A stretch of DNA of 44,612 nt from Actinomycetospora sp. (GTDB lineage Bacteria > Actinomycetota > Actinomycetes > Mycobacteriales > Pseudonocardiaceae): the NCBI GenBank assembly GCA_029266415.1, contig JAQSWW010000006.1, positions 1-44,612 of the forward strand. Direction: 5' to 3'. This document shows, piece after piece, positions 23,961 through 43,953 of the stretch. The position numbers and the translations under genes were made by a program. The notes under the pieces are model-generated. The model was not told where the DNA came from, made no database searches, and saw nothing but the letters and a program-made list of their open reading frames with translations. Each line of letters begins with the position of its first letter. Within the stretch, counting starts at the first letter, position 1.

Positions 23961-24401
23961 ATGACCGCCACCGAACCGGACACCGGCGAGCGGCCCGCCC
24001 CGCTGGGGCTCGGGGCGCAGATCGTGCGGTTCGTGGCGATCGGCGCCGTCGCGGCGTCGGTCGACCTCGGCTTCTACGCGGGCCTGCTCGCGCTCGGCAC
24101 CTGGGCGCCGCTGGCCAAGGCGGTGTCGTTCATCCTCGGCACCACGACGGCCTACCTGCTCAACCGCCGCTTCACCTTCGCCTCGTCCTCCGGGGGCGCG
24201 GGCAGGTTCCTCGGGTTCCTCCTGCTCTACGGCTCGACCTTCGCCGTCAACGTCGGCGTCGCGAGCCTCGTCCTGTACCTCATGGCCGCGCCGTCGATCA
24301 ACCCCGGCGTGCTCGCGGGCTTCCTGTCGTGGTTCATCGCGCAGGCCTGCGCGACGACGATCAACTTCGTCGTCATGCGCACCGTGATCTTCCGCGACTG
24401 A
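23961..24401 (+). CDS. gtrA: GtrA-family membrane protein (Rv3789-like)
   Basis: The 146 residues form four membrane helices, with the GtrA signature QIVRFVAIGAVAASVDLGFY at the first helix, LGTTTAYLLNRRFTF at the second, and TTINFVVMRTVIFRD at the end. GtrA proteins act in lipid-linked sugar metabolism. The mycobacterial relative next to dprE1 was proposed to flip decaprenylphosphoryl arabinose or to anchor another galactan/arabinan enzyme. Here it stands divergently between two emb transcription units rather than in front of dprE1, but the company is the same. The stop is followed 21 nt later by one copy of the dispersed two-hairpin repeat. Confidence 0.9.
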   Translation: MTATEPDTGERPAPLGLGAQIVRFVAIGAVAASVDLGFYAGLLALGTWAPLAKAVSFILGTTTAYLLNRRFTFASSSGGAGRFLGFLLLYGSTFAVNVGVASLVLYLMAAPSINPGVLAGFLSWFIAQACATTINFVVMRTVIFRD

Positions 24402-24414
24402 GGACGCCGGCCAG

Positions 24415-24467
24415 GAAGCAGCGAACGCGCTGTTCGCTGCTTCTATGCGTGCGAACTCCCCGTTCGC
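24415..24467 (+). repeat. Dispersed two-hairpin 3' element, copy 1 (after gtrA)
   Basis: The 47-nt core at 24421-24467 is GCGAAC, loop GCGCT, GTTCGC, then TGCTTCTATGCGT, then GCGAAC, loop TCCCC, GTTCGC. Both hairpins have 6-bp stems and 5-nt loops. Here the first stem is extended to 12 perfect base pairs by GAAGCA (24415-24420) pairing with TGCTTC. The GAAC of the first hairpin begins 22 nt after the last base of the gtrA stop. Like the other copies it has the orientation of the gene it follows. The long stem could itself stop transcription. Confidence 0.7.
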
Positions 24468-24599
24468 GGCTGATGAGGCGCGACGATCGGGGGGCGGTTC
24501 CTCGGGGCGCGCCGCCTCCGCCCGATGATCACCAGGCCTGCGTGGTCGCCGACGGCTCCGCGCCCGCCCCCAGGGCCTGCTGATCATGCGGCCCCGCGA

Positions 24600-24650
24600 G
24601 CGAACGCGGCGTTCCGGCGCATAGAAGCAACGAACAGCGCGTTCGTCGCG
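24600..24650 (-). repeat. Dispersed two-hairpin 3' element, copy 2 (after the third emb)
   Basis: Read on the minus strand, the core runs from 24646 to 24600 and agrees with copy 1 at about 40 of 47 positions by eye, without gaps. The first hairpin is ACGAAC-GCGCT-GTTCGT: the outer G-C pair of copy 1 is an A-T pair here, so both partners changed and the pairing is kept. The second hairpin is weaker (GAAC/GTTC). It begins 19 nt after the stop of the emb gene that ends at 24664. Copies 1 and 2 face each other across about 130 nt. Confidence 0.7.
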
Positions 24651-24663
24651 ACGACCGCCGGCC

Positions 24664-27600
24664 TCAGCGCTCCGGTGACGGCGTGCCCGGGGGCGGGTTG
24701 CCGATGGGGCCGGGGGTGTAGGTCCCCCACACCTCGCGCTCCCCGCGCACGACGGTCGGCGAGGCCGCGTCGGGCGTGTAGGGGTCGAGGCGCTCGACGA
24801 CGCCCCAGTCGCGCTGGGGCTGGCCCTCGAGGTAGGTCGGCAGCTCGGTGCGCCGTTCGAGGACCTCGATCCATCCCAGCGGCCCGCCGGCGCTGGCCTG
24901 CGACCAGTTGACGCCGCCGGGGCGCAGCTGGCTGGCGTCGGCGATGAGGCGGTAGCGCGCGACCTCGGCGATGCCATCGCGCACGTCGAACGGGCGCAGG
25001 CACGGGCTGGCGAACTGCACGGGCCACTCGAGGTAGCCCGGGTTCACCGGCCCGAGGATCTCGGTCAGGGGCACGAGCTGCGGCGCGCGCATGGGCGCCA
25101 CCGCGAGCCAGCCGTCCGGTCCCAGCGCGCGGTCCTGCGCGATCAGGCGCACCTCGTCGGCCTGGGCGCCGGCCCCGGTGGCGAGGTTCAGGCGGATCTC
25201 GCGCCACGGCGGTTCGCCGAACGCCCCGTCGTCGATGCCGTCCTGCCCGAGGATCTGCACACGGCCGTCGGGCAGGCGGTCGGCGAACTGGATGGTGAGG
25301 AAGTTGCCGCCGTTGAGGCGCCCGGCGACCGAGAGCACCAGCGGCGTCGCGCCGCTGCGCAGGTCGTCGTCGAGCCGGTACCAGTCGGTGCGCAGCACCC
25401 CGGTACCGGAGCCGGGCGCGTACGAGCCCAGCGCCTGGTCGGCGAGCCCGTTGCGCAGCGAGTACTCGAAGCCCGACACCCCGGTGCCGCCCCCGACGGG
25501 CGGGTCGGCGCCGGCCGCGGAGAACCCGGAGTTACCGGGCTGCGGGTCGACCAGCTGCGCCTCGGGCGCCGACGCGGGCACGGAGCCGGGCGGCAGCGGC
25601 GCGGGGCTCGGGGTCGCCGCGGTGCCGGGCGCGGTCGTCGTCGTGGTGTCGGGGGGCGTGGTGGTCGTGGTCCCGCCGCCGTCGGTGTCCGCGGCGCCGG
25701 TGCTCCCGGACGCGGACGTGCCCGTCGCGGGGTCGGTCGTCGGCGCGGGGGTCGGCGGCGCGACGGTGGGCAGCACGCCCGGCGCGGACGGCGCCAGCCC
25801 GGTGGGCGCGGGGGCGGCGCCGAGGACGCCGGCGAGCGTCGAGCCCTCCACGCGCACCCGGTCGGCGAGGCCGCAGCTGCCGCCGAAGGGGTTCTCGAGG
25901 ACGTCGCCGCCCAGGGAGAAGCTGCCCTCCTGCGCCTCGATCCCGTCGGTCATCGAGACCATCTCGAACGCGAGCAGCGCCGCGCAGACCAGCGCGATCG
26001 GGGCCGAGCCGATGCGCAGCGCCCGTGCCCGGCGCTCGACGGTCGAGCCGCCGCGCGTGCGCCGCAGCCGGCCCAGCGCCTCGCGCGGGGGCTTGAGGAC
26101 GGCGTCGACCGCGGAGGAGGCGGCCGAGGGCTCGTCGCCCTCCTCGTCGCCGGTGACCGGTGCCCGCGGCGGCGCGCCCCGGATGTGCTCGATCCCGGCG
26201 AACACCAGCAGCAGGACCGCCACGAGGAGGCACAGCGTGTAGACCGGCCACGGGGCGGTGAGGCCGTAGCCGAACGGCCAGCCGTCCCAGAACACCGGGC
26301 CGCCGCTGAACGGCACGCTCCAGTTGTTCGTGTACCACCACGTGTTCGGGCCGGTGAACGCCAGCGCGAGCACCACGAACAGCGCCGCGAGGAACAGCAG
26401 CCGGTTGCGCCGGGAGCGCAGGACGTCCGACGACGTCGCCAGCGCCGTCAGCGCGGCCATGCCGGCGCCGAGGGCGGCGAACGCGCCGAAGTGGTGCGTC
26501 CACTTGGTCGGGGTCAGTGCGAGGACGGCGAAGGCGATGACCGACGAGCCGATCAGGCGCTGCGAGGGGCCGAGGGCGGCGCCGGCGATCTTGTCGCGGC
26601 GCAGCAGCACGACGATGCACACGGCGATGCCGAGCATCAGCAGCAGCACCGGGAAGCGCCGGGCCAGCGAGCCGTCGGCCGCGGTGCCGAACAGCGACTG
26701 GTAGCGCACGACCTCCTGGAACCAGCTCCAGTTCGGTCCCATCAGCGTCCGCAGGCGGGTCGCCTCCCACACCGCCGACCACGTCTGGTCGGCGAAGACG
26801 ACCACGAGCACGAGCAGCCCGGCCGCGAACACCGGCGCGAGCACCGGCAGCCACCCGCCGAAGCGCACGCGCTCCATCACCAGGCGCCACAGCGGGCGGG
26901 CGGAGGCGAGGAACGGGGCGACGGCGATGAAGCCGGTCGGGGTCGCCGCGACGGCGAACGCGGCCGCCATCAGCCCCAGCGCCACCGGCGCGAGCCGCCG
27001 CGTCGCCACCCCGCGCTCGACCGCGCAGAACGCGAGCAGCGCCGAGATGACGACGACGGGCTCGGGGCGCAGCCCGTTGTTGTAGGGCAGCCAGAACGCG
27101 AGGAACACCATCGCCGCGGCCCACGCCGCCGCCTTCGACCGCCGGACCTGCTGGCCCAGGCGCGGGAGCATCTCGCGGCTGATGAGGATCCAGGACACGA
27201 TCCCCATGAGCAACGACGGCACGCGCAGCCAGAGCACCGAGTCGTCGACGCGTATCCATAGCGCGTAGAGCTCGTAGAACCAGCCGAACGGCGCCTCGGG
27301 GACGTTGAACCACCGGTAGTAGTTGCCGATGAAGCCCGCCGACTCGCGGGCCCGGGCGATGCCGAGGATGTAGCCGTCGTCGGACGTCTGGCTGCCGATC
27401 ACGGCCCACACGGCGAGCACGGCGGTGACGACGAGGTCGCGGCTCGTGGGCCGCCACCAGCCCTTCGGCGCGAGACGCGGCGCCCGGCGCCCGGCGCGCA
27501 CGTCGAGCGCGTGCAGCGCCCACACCCCGCCCATCGCGGCCAGCACGGCGAAGAGCCCGGCCAGCACCTTCAGCGTGGTCGGGGTCGTCTCGAACCGCGT

Positions 27601-28236
27601 GTCGGGCGTGATCGACACCGCGACGCCGGCGACGTCGTCGCGCGAGTCGTCGAGGTCGGAGTAGACGCCGACCACCTGCGGACGCGCGTCGAACGGCAGC
27701 CGGATCTGCTGCCCGATGCCGAGGTCGACGAGCGTCGAGCCGGCGTCGGAGGTGATGCGCACCGTGCAGTCGCCGGTCGGCACCGTCGCGGTGGCCATCT
27801 GCTGGCCGAGGTCGTTGAGGACGAGCTGGCCGTTCTCGACGGTCAGGCGCATCCCGACCTGCGGCCCGTCGGGCGACAGCGGCGGGTAGGTCGAGACGAC
27901 GGTGGCCGCGGGTCCGGTGCGCGCGTCGAGGTCCTGGACCGCGCGGCAGGGCACCGTGATGCTCATCGTCTCGGGCCGGTAGACCACCAACGGGGCGTCG
28001 ACCGGACGGGTGCCCGTGGTGGCGCTCGGCCAGGTGATCGTCGAGGTCTCCTGCACGACGGGCAGGATCGGGAACAGCACCGCGAGGACCGTCCCGAGCA
28101 GGCCCAGCCCGACGGCGAGCAGACGTAGCCACCGTGGTCCGCGGGTGGGGCGACGACCGGGCGGGGTCTCGGCGGCGTCCCCGGAACCGTCACGGCCCGG
28201 GCGCGCCGGGCTGACGGCCTGTTCCGAGGTCAGCAC
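24664..28236 (-). CDS. Emb-family arabinosyltransferase (paralogue 3, with Pro/Thr/Gly-rich insert)
   Basis: At 1190 residues this is the longest of the three, and its catalytic part is the most like mycobacterial EmbB/EmbC: SDDGYILGIARARESAGFIGNYYRWF (Asp286, Asp287), then PEAPFGWFYELYALW and VLWLRVPSLLMG. ALTPTKWTHHFGAFAALG marks the later membrane domain. The extra length is a low-complexity stretch at about residues 805-920, rich in Pro, Thr, Gly and Ala (TTTTTPPDTTTTTAPG is typical), inserted in the extracytoplasmic C-terminal domain just after the SCGLADRVRVE block. That domain resumes at GFEYSLRNGLADQ and ends PPPGTPSPER. GTG 28236 has TAACCT 6 nt upstream. It has its own promoter and its own repeat-type 3' end. 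Confidence 0.92.
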   Translation of the reverse strand: MLTSEQAVSPARPGRDGSGDAAETPPGRRPTRGPRWLRLLAVGLGLLGTVLAVLFPILPVVQETSTITWPSATTGTRPVDAPLVVYRPETMSITVPCRAVQDLDARTGPAATVVSTYPPLSPDGPQVGMRLTVENGQLVLNDLGQQMATATVPTGDCTVRITSDAGSTLVDLGIGQQIRLPFDARPQVVGVYSDLDDSRDDVAGVAVSITPDTRFETTPTTLKVLAGLFAVLAAMGGVWALHALDVRAGRRAPRLAPKGWWRPTSRDLVVTAVLAVWAVIGSQTSDDGYILGIARARESAGFIGNYYRWFNVPEAPFGWFYELYALWIRVDDSVLWLRVPSLLMGIVSWILISREMLPRLGQQVRRSKAAAWAAAMVFLAFWLPYNNGLRPEPVVVISALLAFCAVERGVATRRLAPVALGLMAAAFAVAATPTGFIAVAPFLASARPLWRLVMERVRFGGWLPVLAPVFAAGLLVLVVVFADQTWSAVWEATRLRTLMGPNWSWFQEVVRYQSLFGTAADGSLARRFPVLLLMLGIAVCIVVLLRRDKIAGAALGPSQRLIGSSVIAFAVLALTPTKWTHHFGAFAALGAGMAALTALATSSDVLRSRRNRLLFLAALFVVLALAFTGPNTWWYTNNWSVPFSGGPVFWDGWPFGYGLTAPWPVYTLCLLVAVLLLVFAGIEHIRGAPPRAPVTGDEEGDEPSAASSAVDAVLKPPREALGRLRRTRGGSTVERRARALRIGSAPIALVCAALLAFEMVSMTDGIEAQEGSFSLGGDVLENPFGGSCGLADRVRVEGSTLAGVLGAAPAPTGLAPSAPGVLPTVAPPTPAPTTDPATGTSASGSTGAADTDGGGTTTTTPPDTTTTTAPGTAATPSPAPLPPGSVPASAPEAQLVDPQPGNSGFSAAGADPPVGGGTGVSGFEYSLRNGLADQALGSYAPGSGTGVLRTDWYRLDDDLRSGATPLVLSVAGRLNGGNFLTIQFADRLPDGRVQILGQDGIDDGAFGEPPWREIRLNLATGAGAQADEVRLIAQDRALGPDGWLAVAPMRAPQLVPLTEILGPVNPGYLEWPVQFASPCLRPFDVRDGIAEVARYRLIADASQLRPGGVNWSQASAGGPLGWIEVLERRTELPTYLEGQPQRDWGVVERLDPYTPDAASPTVVRGEREVWGTYTPGPIGNPPPGTPSPER

Positions 28237-40935: not shown

Positions 40936-42693
40936 ATGACGGCGGGGGTGCCGGCGGGGGTGCGGACGGACCGTCCGGGTGCGGTCGCCACCGCGGGCCG
41001 CGCCCGCTGGCGCGGTCGCCGCGTCGCGCGCGTCCTCACCTGGGCCGCGCGGGTCGCCGGGCTGCTGACGATCCTCTCGCTGGCCCTGCCCGTCCTGCGC
41101 CGGAACCTGCAGCCCGCGACGTGGTTCGGCTTCCCCGCACAGGCCTCGCTCGTCGGCACCGTCGTCGTCGCGACGCTCGGCCTCGGGCTGACGATGCTGG
41201 CGACGGGCCTGCGCCGCCGCAAGCGCCGGGCCTGGCAGCTCGCGGTGCTGGCGTGCGTGCTGCTCGTGGTCTCGCACGTGCTCGGGCGGCAGTCGATCGT
41301 CCCGGGCGTCGTGGTCCTGGTGCTGCTCGCGGGCCTGCTCCTGACCCGCCGCGAGTTCACCGCCCAGCCCGATCCCGTCGGACGGCTCGCCGCGGTGCGC
41401 GTCGTGGTGCAGATGCTGCTCGGCGGCTTCGTCGTGGTGCTCCTGCTGCTGGTCGCGCGGCCGTCGCTGATCGACGGCCGACCGGGGCTGGGGGAGAAGG
41501 CCGCGCAGGCGGCCCTGTCGCTGATCGGGGTGAGCGGGCCGCTGCGCTTCCGCGCCGAGTGGTTCGACGACCTGACCGCCGGCGTCGGGCTCGCCTTCGG
41601 CATCGCGGCGCTGGTGCTCGGCGGCTACTTCCTGCTGCGCTCGGCCGAGCCCCGCCCGTCGCTGACCGACGACGACTCCGAGCGCATCCGCGACCTGCTC
41701 GCCCGCCACGGGCGCACCGACTCGTTGGGCTACTTCGCCCTGCGCCGCGACAAGGCCGCCGTGTTCTCCCCGTCGGGCAAGGCCGCGGTCGTGTACCGGG
41801 TCGTCGCCGGCGTCGCGCTGGCGTCCGGTGACCCGCTCGGCGACCTCGAGGCCTGGCCGGGCGCGATCCAGGAGTTCCTCGCGACGTGCCGGCTCGCGGG
41901 CTGGGTGCCGGCGGTGCTCGGGTGCTCGGAGGCCGGCGCGCGGGTGTGGGTCCGCGAAGGCGGCCTCGACGCGCTCGAGCTCGGCGACGAGGCGGTGGTC
42001 GACGTCGCCACGTTCTCGCTGCAGGGGCGCGCGATGCGCACCGTGCGCCAGGCCGTGTCGCGCGTGCGGCGCGCCGGCTACGACACCAGGGTGCGCCGGC
42101 TGCGCGACGTGCCCGCCGACGAGCTGGAGACGCTGCGCGAGCTCGTCGCCCGCTGGCGCGGCGGTCCGGCGGAGCGCGGCTTCTCCATGGCGCTCTCCCG
42201 CGTCGCCGACGCCGAGGCCGACCCGGACGCCGTGCTCGTCGTCGCGACCTGCGAGGACGAGACGCGCGGCGTGCTGCAGTTCGTCCCGTGGGGCGTCGAC
42301 GGCCTGTCGCTCGACATCATGATCCGCGACCCCGCCGTGCCCGACAACGGCCTCAACGAGCTGCTCATCGCCGAACTGCTGGGCGCCTGCCGGGGGCTCG
42401 GCGTCGACCGGGTGTCGCTGAACTTCGCGGTGTTCCGGTCCGCGCTCGAGCGGGGCGAGAAGATCGGCGCGGGCCCGGTGGCGCGGCTCTGGGCGCGGGT
42501 GTTGCGCACGGCGTCGCGGTGGTGGCAGATCGAGACGCTCTACCGCTTCAACGCCCGCTTCGGCCCGGTGTGGGTGCCGCGGTACCTGGTGTTCGACGCC
42601 GTGCGCGACCTGCCCCGCATCGCCGTCGCGGCGTTCGAGGCCGAGGGCTACGGCGGGCGCCCGCCGGCCCTGCTGCGGCTGCTGCGCCGCTGA
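40936..42693 (+). CDS. MprF-like protein (DUF2156), possible lysyl-phosphatidylglycerol synthase without tRNA synthetase domain
   Basis: The 585-residue protein has about six membrane segments in its first 250 residues, fewer than full MprF. A cytoplasmic DUF2156 domain with two GNAT-like halves follows (FSPSGKAAVVYRVVAGVALASGDPLGD, MRTVRQAVSRVRRAGYDTRVRRLRDVP, LDIMIRDPAVPDNGLNELLIAELL). In MprF this domain takes Lys or Ala from tRNA onto phosphatidylglycerol, making the membrane more positive and more resistant to cationic peptides. LysX of mycobacteria fuses it to a lysyl-tRNA synthetase; no such domain is present here, so a separate synthetase or the ordinary charged tRNA would be used. 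ATG 40936 has GGAGG 4-5 nt upstream. The dispersed two-hairpin repeat follows its stop. Confidence 0.85.
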   Translation: MTAGVPAGVRTDRPGAVATAGRARWRGRRVARVLTWAARVAGLLTILSLALPVLRRNLQPATWFGFPAQASLVGTVVVATLGLGLTMLATGLRRRKRRAWQLAVLACVLLVVSHVLGRQSIVPGVVVLVLLAGLLLTRREFTAQPDPVGRLAAVRVVVQMLLGGFVVVLLLLVARPSLIDGRPGLGEKAAQAALSLIGVSGPLRFRAEWFDDLTAGVGLAFGIAALVLGGYFLLRSAEPRPSLTDDDSERIRDLLARHGRTDSLGYFALRRDKAAVFSPSGKAAVVYRVVAGVALASGDPLGDLEAWPGAIQEFLATCRLAGWVPAVLGCSEAGARVWVREGGLDALELGDEAVVDVATFSLQGRAMRTVRQAVSRVRRAGYDTRVRRLRDVPADELETLRELVARWRGGPAERGFSMALSRVADAEADPDAVLVVATCEDETRGVLQFVPWGVDGLSLDIMIRDPAVPDNGLNELLIAELLGACRGLGVDRVSLNFAVFRSALERGEKIGAGPVARLWARVLRTASRWWQIETLYRFNARFGPVWVPRYLVFDAVRDLPRIAVAAFEAEGYGGRPPALLRLLRR

Positions 42694-42711: not shown

Positions 42712-42758
42712 ACGAACGGGTATCTCGCTGCTTCTACGCGCGCGAACTCCCCGTTCGC
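42712..42758 (+). repeat. Dispersed two-hairpin 3' element, copy 3 (after the MprF-like gene)
   Basis: The 47 nt agree with copy 1 at about 39 positions by eye, without gaps. The central TGCTTCTA and the second hairpin (GCGAAC, TCCCC, GTTCGC) are conserved; the first hairpin is degenerate (GAACGGGTATCTCG). The GAAC begins 20 nt after the stop codon, against 21 and 19 nt for the other copies. The sequence between the stop and the element is unrelated between copies. Confidence 0.65.
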
Positions 42759-42867
42759 TCGCCGGCGCGGACCAGGAGCGGGTCGAGGATCTGGTCGAGA
42801 ATCTGGTCCAGCACGGCCTCGAGGGAGCCGGGGCACCCGGGTCGCGTGACGGGTCGTGGACGCAGCA

Positions 42868-42907
42868 AAGGGCGCCTTCGCTGCCCCGGAGCTGCGAGGG
42901 CGCCCTT
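42868..42907. terminator. Bidirectional terminator between converging genes
   Basis: AAGGGCGCCTTCGC (42868-42881) pairs over 14 positions with GCGAGGGCGCCCTT (42894-42907), including one G-U pair, around a 12-nt loop. The MprF-like gene (plus) and the alcohol dehydrogenase (minus) converge here. On the minus strand the stem is followed by TGCTGCG, and on the plus strand by CGCACC. Confidence 0.75.
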
Positions 42908-42921
42908 CGCACCGTCGGGTG

Positions 42922-43953
42922 TCAGGGCTTGACGAGCACCTTGAGGGCCTCGCGGTCGTTCATCGCGCGGTAGCCGTCCGGGGTCTCGTCGAGGGGGATC
43001 GTCCGGTCGAACACCTTGCCCGGCTCGATCTTCCCGTCCATGACGTCGGGCAGCAGCTCGTGCATGTTCGCCTGGGTCGGGGCGATGCCGCCGGCGACCG
43101 TCACGTTCTTCATGAACTTCTGCGCCAGGTTGGGCAGCGAGCCGCTCTGCGGGACGCCGACGATGCCGACGTGGCCGCCCGGCTTGGTCAGGTTGATCGC
43201 CGAGGTCAGCGACTGCTCGTAGCCCACGGCCTCGATGGCGGAGTGGACGCCGTCGGTGCCGAGGATGTCGCGCACCTGCTGCTCGCCCTCCTCGCCGCGC
43301 TCGGAGACGACGTCGGTGGCGCCGAACTCGCTGCCGAGGTCGGTGCGGTCCTTGTGCCGGCCCATGAGCACGATGCGCTCGGCGCCGAGCCGCTTGGCGG
43401 CCAGCACCGCGAGCAGGCCGACGGCGCCGTCGCCGATCACCACAACGTCCTTACCCGGGCCGACCTGCGCCGACACCGCGGCGTGGTGGCCGGTGCCGAA
43501 GACGTCGGAGAGTGTCAGCAGGCTCGGCATCAGCGCCGAGTCCTGCGAGACGTCGAGCTTCATCAGCGACGCGTCGGCGAACGGGATGCGCGCTGCCTCG
43601 CCCTGGCCGCCGTCGGTCTCGGCGCCCCAGGCGTTCCCGTTGGGACACGCGCTGGTCAGGCCGGCCCGGCAGTACTCGCAGGTGCCGTCGGCGTAGAAGA
43701 ACGGGGCGACGACCACGTCGCCCTTCTGGACGCGGCTCACGTCCGCGCCGGTCTCCTCGACCACGCCGAGGAACTCGTGGCCGATGCGGTCGCCCTGCTC
43801 GGTCTGCTCGCGGCTCTTGTACGGCCACAGGTCGCTACCGCAGATGCACGCGTGCGTGATGCGCACGATCGCGTCGGTGGCGTTCTGCAGCGCCGGGTCG
43901 GGGACCTCCTCCACCCGGATGTCGCCTGCTCCGTAGATCAACGTCGCCTTCAC
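42922..43953 (-). CDS. Zinc-dependent alcohol dehydrogenase (MDR family)
   Basis: The 343-residue protein has the catalytic zinc ligands Cys38 (CICGSDLWPY) and His59-Glu60 (RIGHE), and a structural zinc site DGTCEYCRAGLTSAC with Cys92, Cys95, Cys103 and an Asp in place of the first Cys, as in one branch of the family. VVVIGDGAVGLLAVLAAKRLGAERIVLMGRHKDRTDLG is the NAD(P) Rossmann motif; the Arg pair after Gly suggests NADP is possible. The substrate is not evident; relatives act on glutathione- or mycothiol-linked aldehydes or on diols. GTG 43953 has GGAGGG about 7 nt upstream. Confidence 0.93.
   Translation of the reverse strand: MKATLIYGAGDIRVEEVPDPALQNATDAIVRITHACICGSDLWPYKSREQTEQGDRIGHEFLGVVEETGADVSRVQKGDVVVAPFFYADGTCEYCRAGLTSACPNGNAWGAETDGGQGEAARIPFADASLMKLDVSQDSALMPSLLTLSDVFGTGHHAAVSAQVGPGKDVVVIGDGAVGLLAVLAAKRLGAERIVLMGRHKDRTDLGSEFGATDVVSERGEEGEQQVRDILGTDGVHSAIEAVGYEQSLTSAINLTKPGGHVGIVGVPQSGSLPNLAQKFMKNVTVAGGIAPTQANMHELLPDVMDGKIEPGKVFDRTIPLDETPDGYRAMNDREALKVLVKP

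Follow-up and report, generated by a model that had tools for sequence, protein, structure and literature searches.

The window analyzed here, a 44,612-nt stretch of Actinomycetospora DNA, contains three copies of a 47-nt repeat made of two small palindromes, and each copy lies shortly behind the stop codon of a gene. This raises the question of whether the repeat is a 3' end used by these genes, a small element that disperses and lands behind genes, or both. An earlier note on this DNA had suggested that it looks like a portable 3' end, and two of the alternatives listed there, an element of gene 3' ends and a small element that disperses, apparently both hold true.

Three copies of the repeat in the window

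Re-searching the window recovered the three copies at the positions and on the strands given in the earlier note, and the pattern was expected 0.00 times per window (100 shuffles of the window). The CGAAC of copy 1 (24421-24467, plus strand) lies 20 nt past the stop, at 24401, of gtrA (23961-24401, plus strand; Pfam PF04138). Copy 2 (24600-24646, minus strand) has its CGAAC 18 nt past the stop, at 24664, of the third of three emb arabinosyltransferase genes in the window (24664-28236, minus strand; PF04602, PF14896, PF17689) and runs in the same direction as that gene. In copy 3 (42712-42758, plus strand) the CGAAC lies 19 nt past the stop, at 42693, of an MprF-like gene with an LPG_synthase_C domain (40936-42693, plus strand; PF09924). 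Measured to GAAC, the distances were 21, 19 and 20 nt for gtrA, emb and the MprF-like gene, in agreement with the noted 19-21 nt, and the Pfam matches backed the three gene names. The convergent gtrA and emb genes are separated by a 262-nt intergenic region (24402-24663) with one repeat copy per gene.

The first stem of copy 1 extends to 13 bp (24414-24426 paired with 24432-24444), followed by A and then TGCG, and the TTCTA of this copy lies partly within the longer stem. Two CGAAC/GTTCG-type hairpins had been described for all three copies; this needs correction for the first hairpin of copy 3, where CGAAC faces TCTCG, not GTTCG. Copy 3 carries the GGGTATCTCG allele in its first half, and its lowest-energy fold is a long hairpin. 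At gathering score, three tRNAs were the sole Rfam matches in the whole window and none lay on the repeat. Our literature search, with subscription papers mostly outside it, found no description of the repeat.

Spread through the genus

Actinomycetospora are soil bacteria that form a genus of the Pseudonocardiaceae. We built a covariance model (R1) from 30 copies and searched the source assembly (G000; 4.73 Mb, draft, 84.5% complete), which gave at least 120 matches at E ≤1 with both strands counted. Keeping the better strand per site at E ≤ ~5e-5 and discarding weaker matches left at least 61 distinct sites, a lower bound because 150 of 6442 candidates were scored. A 28-base pattern compared with named genomes found at least 106 stretches, all from Actinomycetospora among the matches listed. 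R1 identified 126 sites in 100 of the 106 named loci (L131-L136 were left out).

A similar pattern allowing at most one mismatch matched 6 of 200 genomes of the family, all six among the 10 Actinomycetospora sampled, and none of 190 genomes of 45 other genera. The counts were 37 in G000, 65 in G166, 58 in G178, 59 in G189, 2 in G135, 1 in G098 and 0 in four other genomes of the genus. At E ≤1e-5, R1 had matches in 18 of 18 genomes of the genus, from at least 1 (G151) to at least 118 (G206), with both strands counted and 150 candidates scored per genome. The R1 matches inspected in a second Actinomycetospora clade were of a looser form with different arm sequences. Across the family, the same threshold gave matches in 15 of 120 genomes and 9 of 46 genera including Actinomycetospora. 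The repeat is a dispersed double palindrome, and this sequence form is concentrated in one Actinomycetospora clade.

A related-looking family, a double palindrome with the same geometry, was found in G112 (genus g26) in 66 copies. It lies partly in head-to-tail arrays at ~86-90 nt spacing (C1:2243156-2243472, C1:3723394-3723698). In 29 of 30 loci inspected these copies were between genes (15 convergent, 3 divergent), 6-891 nt past the upstream same-strand stop with no fixed distance.

Placement behind stop codons

Gene calls came from a home-made codon-score caller and are approximate for starts and small genes. Among the 61 sites of the source assembly, 12 overlapped a called ORF, 5 lay at contig edges and 44 were intergenic with both neighbours; the 126 sites of the relatives comprised 22, 4 and 100, respectively. 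The intergenic copies were located in convergent (28 in the source assembly and 55 in the relatives), tandem (15 and 43) and divergent gaps (1 and 2). Among the gaps of at least 45 nt in the same loci, 65 of 205 and 106 of 372 were divergent.

As a check of its 3'-element reading, the earlier note had proposed to relate every genome copy to the nearest upstream stop codon by strand and distance, and the counts favour that reading. An own-strand stop lay 10-25 nt upstream of 22 of 44 intergenic copies in the source assembly and 56 of 100 in the relatives, compared with 7.2 and 13.9 for a random position in the same gap and a random strand; the observed values exceeded all 2000 simulations, and the counts are not fully independent because the lists contain orthologous sites. 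A facing stop 10-25 nt downstream occurred at chance level (8 vs 7.3 and 11 vs 13.7). The repeat therefore has a direction. The idea that copies share the orientation of the upstream gene holds as this overall bias and does not hold for tandem pairs of the source assembly: copies in tandem gaps ran along and against gene direction in 36 and 7 cases in the relatives and in 8 and 7 cases in the source assembly, the latter counting against strict polarity.

The supposed fixed distance past the stop stands as the 10-25 nt excess and falls as a rule. Among copies with a same-strand gene upstream, the repeat started 13-23 nt past the stop of that gene in 17/36 of the source assembly and 51/92 of the relatives, within 15 nt in 11/36 and 25/92, and more than 40 nt away in 7/36 and 22/92. 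The GCAG part of the stem lies 4 nt nearer the stop than the repeat start. Other hairpins behind genes in Actinomycetospora genomes started at a median of 16 nt past the stop, so the stop distance is not special to the present family. REPs of E. coli that lie at most 15 nt from a stop are described as able to stall ribosomes (PMC12306157), and the distance seen here may be set by the ribosome; given the copies at 15 nt or less, such a clearance rule would not be strict.

Of 150 convergent gene ends, 64.7% had a hairpin within the following 90 nt, compared with 24.7% in the coding control. Behind tandem ends the values were 40% vs 24% in the control for gaps of at least 100 nt (n=104) and 23% vs 35% for gaps of 40-100 nt (n=86). 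This shows that a hairpin is absent from some gene ends.

Folding, covariation and the U-rich stretch

The first stems of copies 1 and 2 differ by a paired change from G-C to A-T, from which the earlier note had concluded that the pairing is selected. The change is real between these two copies; selection for the pairing was not borne out across 158 distinct copies. The pair (model columns 10/26) was GC in 108, AC in 44, GU in 3, AU in 2 and other in 1, giving 110/158 Watson-Crick pairs vs 109.2 after shuffling, and a covarying short first stem was rejected. Among the 39 column pairs of this test, in which shuffling ignores relatedness, the outer arm pair 10/56 was Watson-Crick in 106 copies vs 89.3 shuffled (7/2000; p 0.02 in the source-assembly subset and 0.08 in the relatives), pair 18/48 in 142 vs 135.6 (8/2000) and pair 20/46 in 29 vs 17.0 (0/2000). 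The first loop was the reverse complement of the second in 16/107 copies vs 5.7 expected (0/5000). No arm covariation was found among the G112 copies, where the search pattern itself restricts the possible variation. These comparisons moderately support outer arms that covary, as in a long inverted repeat, which could therefore fold as two hairpins or as one long one. The lowest-energy fold was the long hairpin in 86 of 159 copies, two hairpins in 68 and another fold in 5.

Downstream of the first hairpin, UUCUA was present in 134/159 full-length copies and at least three U in 8 nt in 146/159. The latter is the criterion used for U-rich ends in Streptomyces (PMC8269248). At least three U in 8 nt followed the whole element in 7/159 copies; on the opposite strand this was found in 10/159 after the first hairpin and 3/159 after the second. 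This one-sided U-rich stretch provides a natural reason for the direction of the repeat.

The second half ended in GTTGATC or GTCGATC, not in a CGAAC/GTTCG hairpin, in 48/187 copies. These altered ends (L044, L045, L117, L128 and others) resemble CGAAGTCCCCGTTGATCAC, and TGATCA is itself palindromic. We rejected the explanation that the TTGATCAC end is the stop codon of the facing gene, as a facing stop lay within 30 nt in only 18 of the 50 copies flagged by a simple string match, a looser criterion than the one that gave 48/187. An allele of the first hairpin whose loop is longer (like CCTATCGGCGTGCTC) was seen repeatedly, at different sites and in several species (L178:3961-4039, L346:8644-8724, L344:4289-4352 and L347:2767-2847).

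Shared sites and sequence turnover

The flanks of 43 of the 61 sites in the source assembly could be aligned in loci of relatives with the element between them, which gives no sharing rate because most compared loci were chosen for containing the element. At orthologous sites, 42 pairs of copies were 88.3% alike over 47 columns, compared with 84.3% for permuted partners (maximum 86.4% in 2000 permutations) and 78.3% for copies within the source assembly. The loop allele was the same in 15/42 pairs (9.8 expected) and different in 27/42, drawn from a small pool (13 alleles in 50 copies and 19 in 109). Five pairs at four sites had GGGTATCTCG in one partner and GCGCTGTTCG in the other, and the class of the second half differed in 8/42 pairs. 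The sites are thus inherited, and the sequence moves through a common pool. Gene conversion and re-insertion at the same place would both explain the allele turnover.

Copies inside protein genes

According to the home-made caller, 34/187 copies overlapped called ORFs, lying mid-ORF in 14 cases, at the 3' end in 13 and at the 5' end in 7. Read backwards, the repeat encodes the NGEFAR...EAANSAF-like peptide that had been predicted from the window, and this peptide is in frame within some called genes. Five mid-ORF cases were compared with Pfam; four were found between or next to domains and one was doubtful. The element forms residues 354-374 of an FMN/FAD oxidoreductase, placed between Oxidored_FMN (6-320) and an FAD domain that starts at 373. 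It forms residues 446-467 of AtuA, between 2-430 and 472-568. Residues 239-259 of a BTAD/NB-ARC regulator, flanked by 86-228 and 276, and residues 747-767 of a NuoG-like protein, behind the molybdopterin stretch (563-693), are also formed by the element. For the fifth case (L151), the ORF itself probably results from a false merger.

G000, G178, G206, G204, G166 and A. callitridis L104 all have the oxidoreductase copy; the site holds a diverged stretch in G135, and a shorter linker was seen in G201, in G207 and in those rows of the other clade that could be read (6/34 rows of the alignment were in the wrong frame and were left out). This copy is the strongest sign that the element can enter DNA in which no terminator is needed. 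In L052:1903-5241, two elements lie in frame in one long ORF, before a membrane-protein-like stretch; they may link two halves of a fused transporter.

Other repeat families at the same gene ends

The MprF-like stop was reached in 18 genomes of the genus, 16 of which have sequence behind it (two contigs end). Reading by eye, we found an inverted repeat there in 16/16: the present family in 6, a GCGAGGG/CCCTCGC two-part repeat in 3 (G135, G207, G201) and other near-perfect inverted repeats in 7. The 80 nt behind the stop folded with z < -2 in 14/16, the exceptions being G201 (z -0.92), in which the hairpin begins 56 nt from the stop, and G075 (z -1.66). In G098 the lowest-energy fold differs from the hairpin that adjoins the stop.

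The ends of the other two genes were similarly exchanged. Behind the third emb gene, 15 genomes including the source assembly had the present family or a looser form in 8, with model scores of just 18 and 34 bits in G189 and G135, the GCGAGGG repeat in 2 and other repeats in 5. Behind gtrA a similar exchange of families was observed except in G201 and G207, where no repeat was recognised near the stop. G075, G118 and G151 have a CAAGATC/GATCTTG repeat within ~130 nt of both the emb and gtrA stops, preceded at the emb end by another hairpin; in G042 and G098 both genes end in GTGAGTA.../...TACTCAC-type repeats. These two kinds are the other clade's own repeats behind emb and gtrA (loci L243, L245, L246, L349, L351, L352).

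Regex counts over 16-80 kb per genome, with patterns written after those sequences had been seen, placed the present and GCGAGGG families in one clade and the CAAGATC and GTGAGTA families in the other; G204 and G200 deviated slightly. The clades follow the identity of the MprF-like protein (82-95% vs 73-75%). In 56 sources from the source assembly itself, the strict GCGAGGG pattern had 0 matches; a looser pattern had 1 match in the window. The window also has a weak R1 match at 42845-42915 (E 0.0003 on the minus strand, 0.0024 on the plus strand), a GCAGC.AAGG...CCTTCGCTGC hairpin that faces the dehydrogenase gene at 42922-43953 and is possibly a copy of a GCGAGGG-type family.

Comparison with known elements

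Two known sites with similar features were set aside. In the SOS/LexA box GAAC and GTTC are 4 nt apart, compared with 5 nt here. Integron attC resembles the repeat as a hairpin at a gene end and was set aside because the present copies sit behind core genes at shared sites.

Like the REPs (GTAG/CGTC) described in PMC3733652, the repeat is a short palindrome with many copies between genes, most of them following a gene. Those REPs likewise favour convergent and tandem gaps, occur in opposite-orientation pairs and have some copies within ORFs. The word Actinobacteria does not occur in the main text of that paper. Unlike REPs, the present repeat appears to have no constant tetranucleotide tag: a TAG commonly precedes the palindrome on the opposite strand (TTCTA in 134/159), and the preceding base is G in 79/159, limiting GTAG to at most 79/159. 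As in REPINs, which are described together with the RAYT transposases that mobilise them (PMC3116915), two inverted palindromic halves can form one hairpin; a clover fold is also described there. The present repeat is shorter than a REPIN. The Y1 transposase domain (PF01797), and hence RAYT, was found in 0/18 genomes of the genus, which are drafts (G000 84.5% complete), and in 5/14 control genomes. We therefore do not file the repeat as a REPIN. Rickettsia palindromic elements (RPE) are described as palindromic repeats in frame inside protein genes (PMC10969869, PMC3733652); by description rather than by sequence, the mid-ORF minority (14/187) is alike, while most present copies are intergenic behind stops. 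The first half resembles the intrinsic and U-poor (I-shaped) terminators described for GC-rich actinobacteria in PMC8269248 in having a stable stem-loop, followed behind the stop by a U-rich tract in a weak form, UUCUA. Unlike such terminators, this sequence is common to dozens of loci and concentrated in one clade.

A search for a precise empty site and a target duplication, as expected of a MITE, found no clean example of either, and mobility is therefore suggested by the spread and the in-frame copies. Supposed empty sites contained a copy, another repeat or diverged sequence: L134, L136, L131 and one of two L133 sites had a copy present, and the other L133 site could not be aligned.

Explanations of the repeat

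We consider it probable that the repeat is a dispersed inverted repeat of ~47 nt, of the REP/REPIN/RPE kind, which spreads by a non-RAYT route and at 3' ends acts as a terminator or as a hairpin that closes the mRNA. It has the look of an old mobile repeat, and its placement and anatomy suggest that it probably forms the mRNA end behind genes. Copies would spread within the genome, and one just behind a stop codon would provide the transcript of that gene with its 3' end. Transcription would reach the first half (GCAGCGAAC-loop-GTTCGCTGC, then UUCUA) before the second, and its hairpin may work like an intrinsic terminator or protect the 3' end; read-through would allow the complete repeat to refold into one long hairpin. 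Both the termination or 3' protection and the mobility are predicted in this scheme. The modest covariation, absent in G112, and the G112 family without a fixed stop distance count against it.

A bolder version, which we put forward tentatively, is that RAYT-less mobile palindromes install themselves as gene terminators, that lineages swap repeat families at orthologous 3' ends with the hairpin function kept, and that in-frame landings supply linker peptides.

We think it unlikely that the repeat is a family of non-mobile, GC-rich terminators whose similarity is maintained by gene conversion between copies or by selection for a single factor. The sites common to species with the element between aligned flanks, the differing loop alleles from a common pool and the hairpin followed by UUCUA would all be expected of such a family. 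The in-frame copies in protein genes, which need no terminator, and the similar G112 repeat with its tandem arrays and scattered distances argue against it. Quite unlikely is a purely selfish or neutral repeat that inserts anywhere, is merely tolerated behind genes and has no function: the small in-frame load in linkers, the lineage-specific families and the avoidance of divergent regions, where promoters would suffer damage, are consistent with it, but the short stop spacing with its direction bias and an inverted repeat behind the MprF-like stop in each of the 16 genomes with sequence there, whatever the family, are not. A DNA-level site for a nucleoid protein, gyrase or another factor acting as a double palindrome is very improbable. 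The two palindromic half sites do have a fixed 15-15-15 geometry, shown also by matches outside the genus, although the model is itself biased towards such a geometry. A symmetric site would, however, not be expected to show the strand bias and the stop spacing, and the second half is altered in about a quarter of copies.

As a palindromic intergenic repeat, the element is ordinary in kind. It is unusual in four respects: no RAYT was found, it has a direction and a short spacing behind stops, families are exchanged by clade at the same gene ends, and it has in-frame linker copies in an actinobacterium. An actinobacterial genus with REPIN-like repeats and no detectable Y1 transposase is therefore a suitable system for asking what else spreads such repeats. 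Because species differ in the repeat family, even an unrelated one, that they use at a given gene end, comparing such ends offers a test of whether repeats turn into genuine transcript ends.
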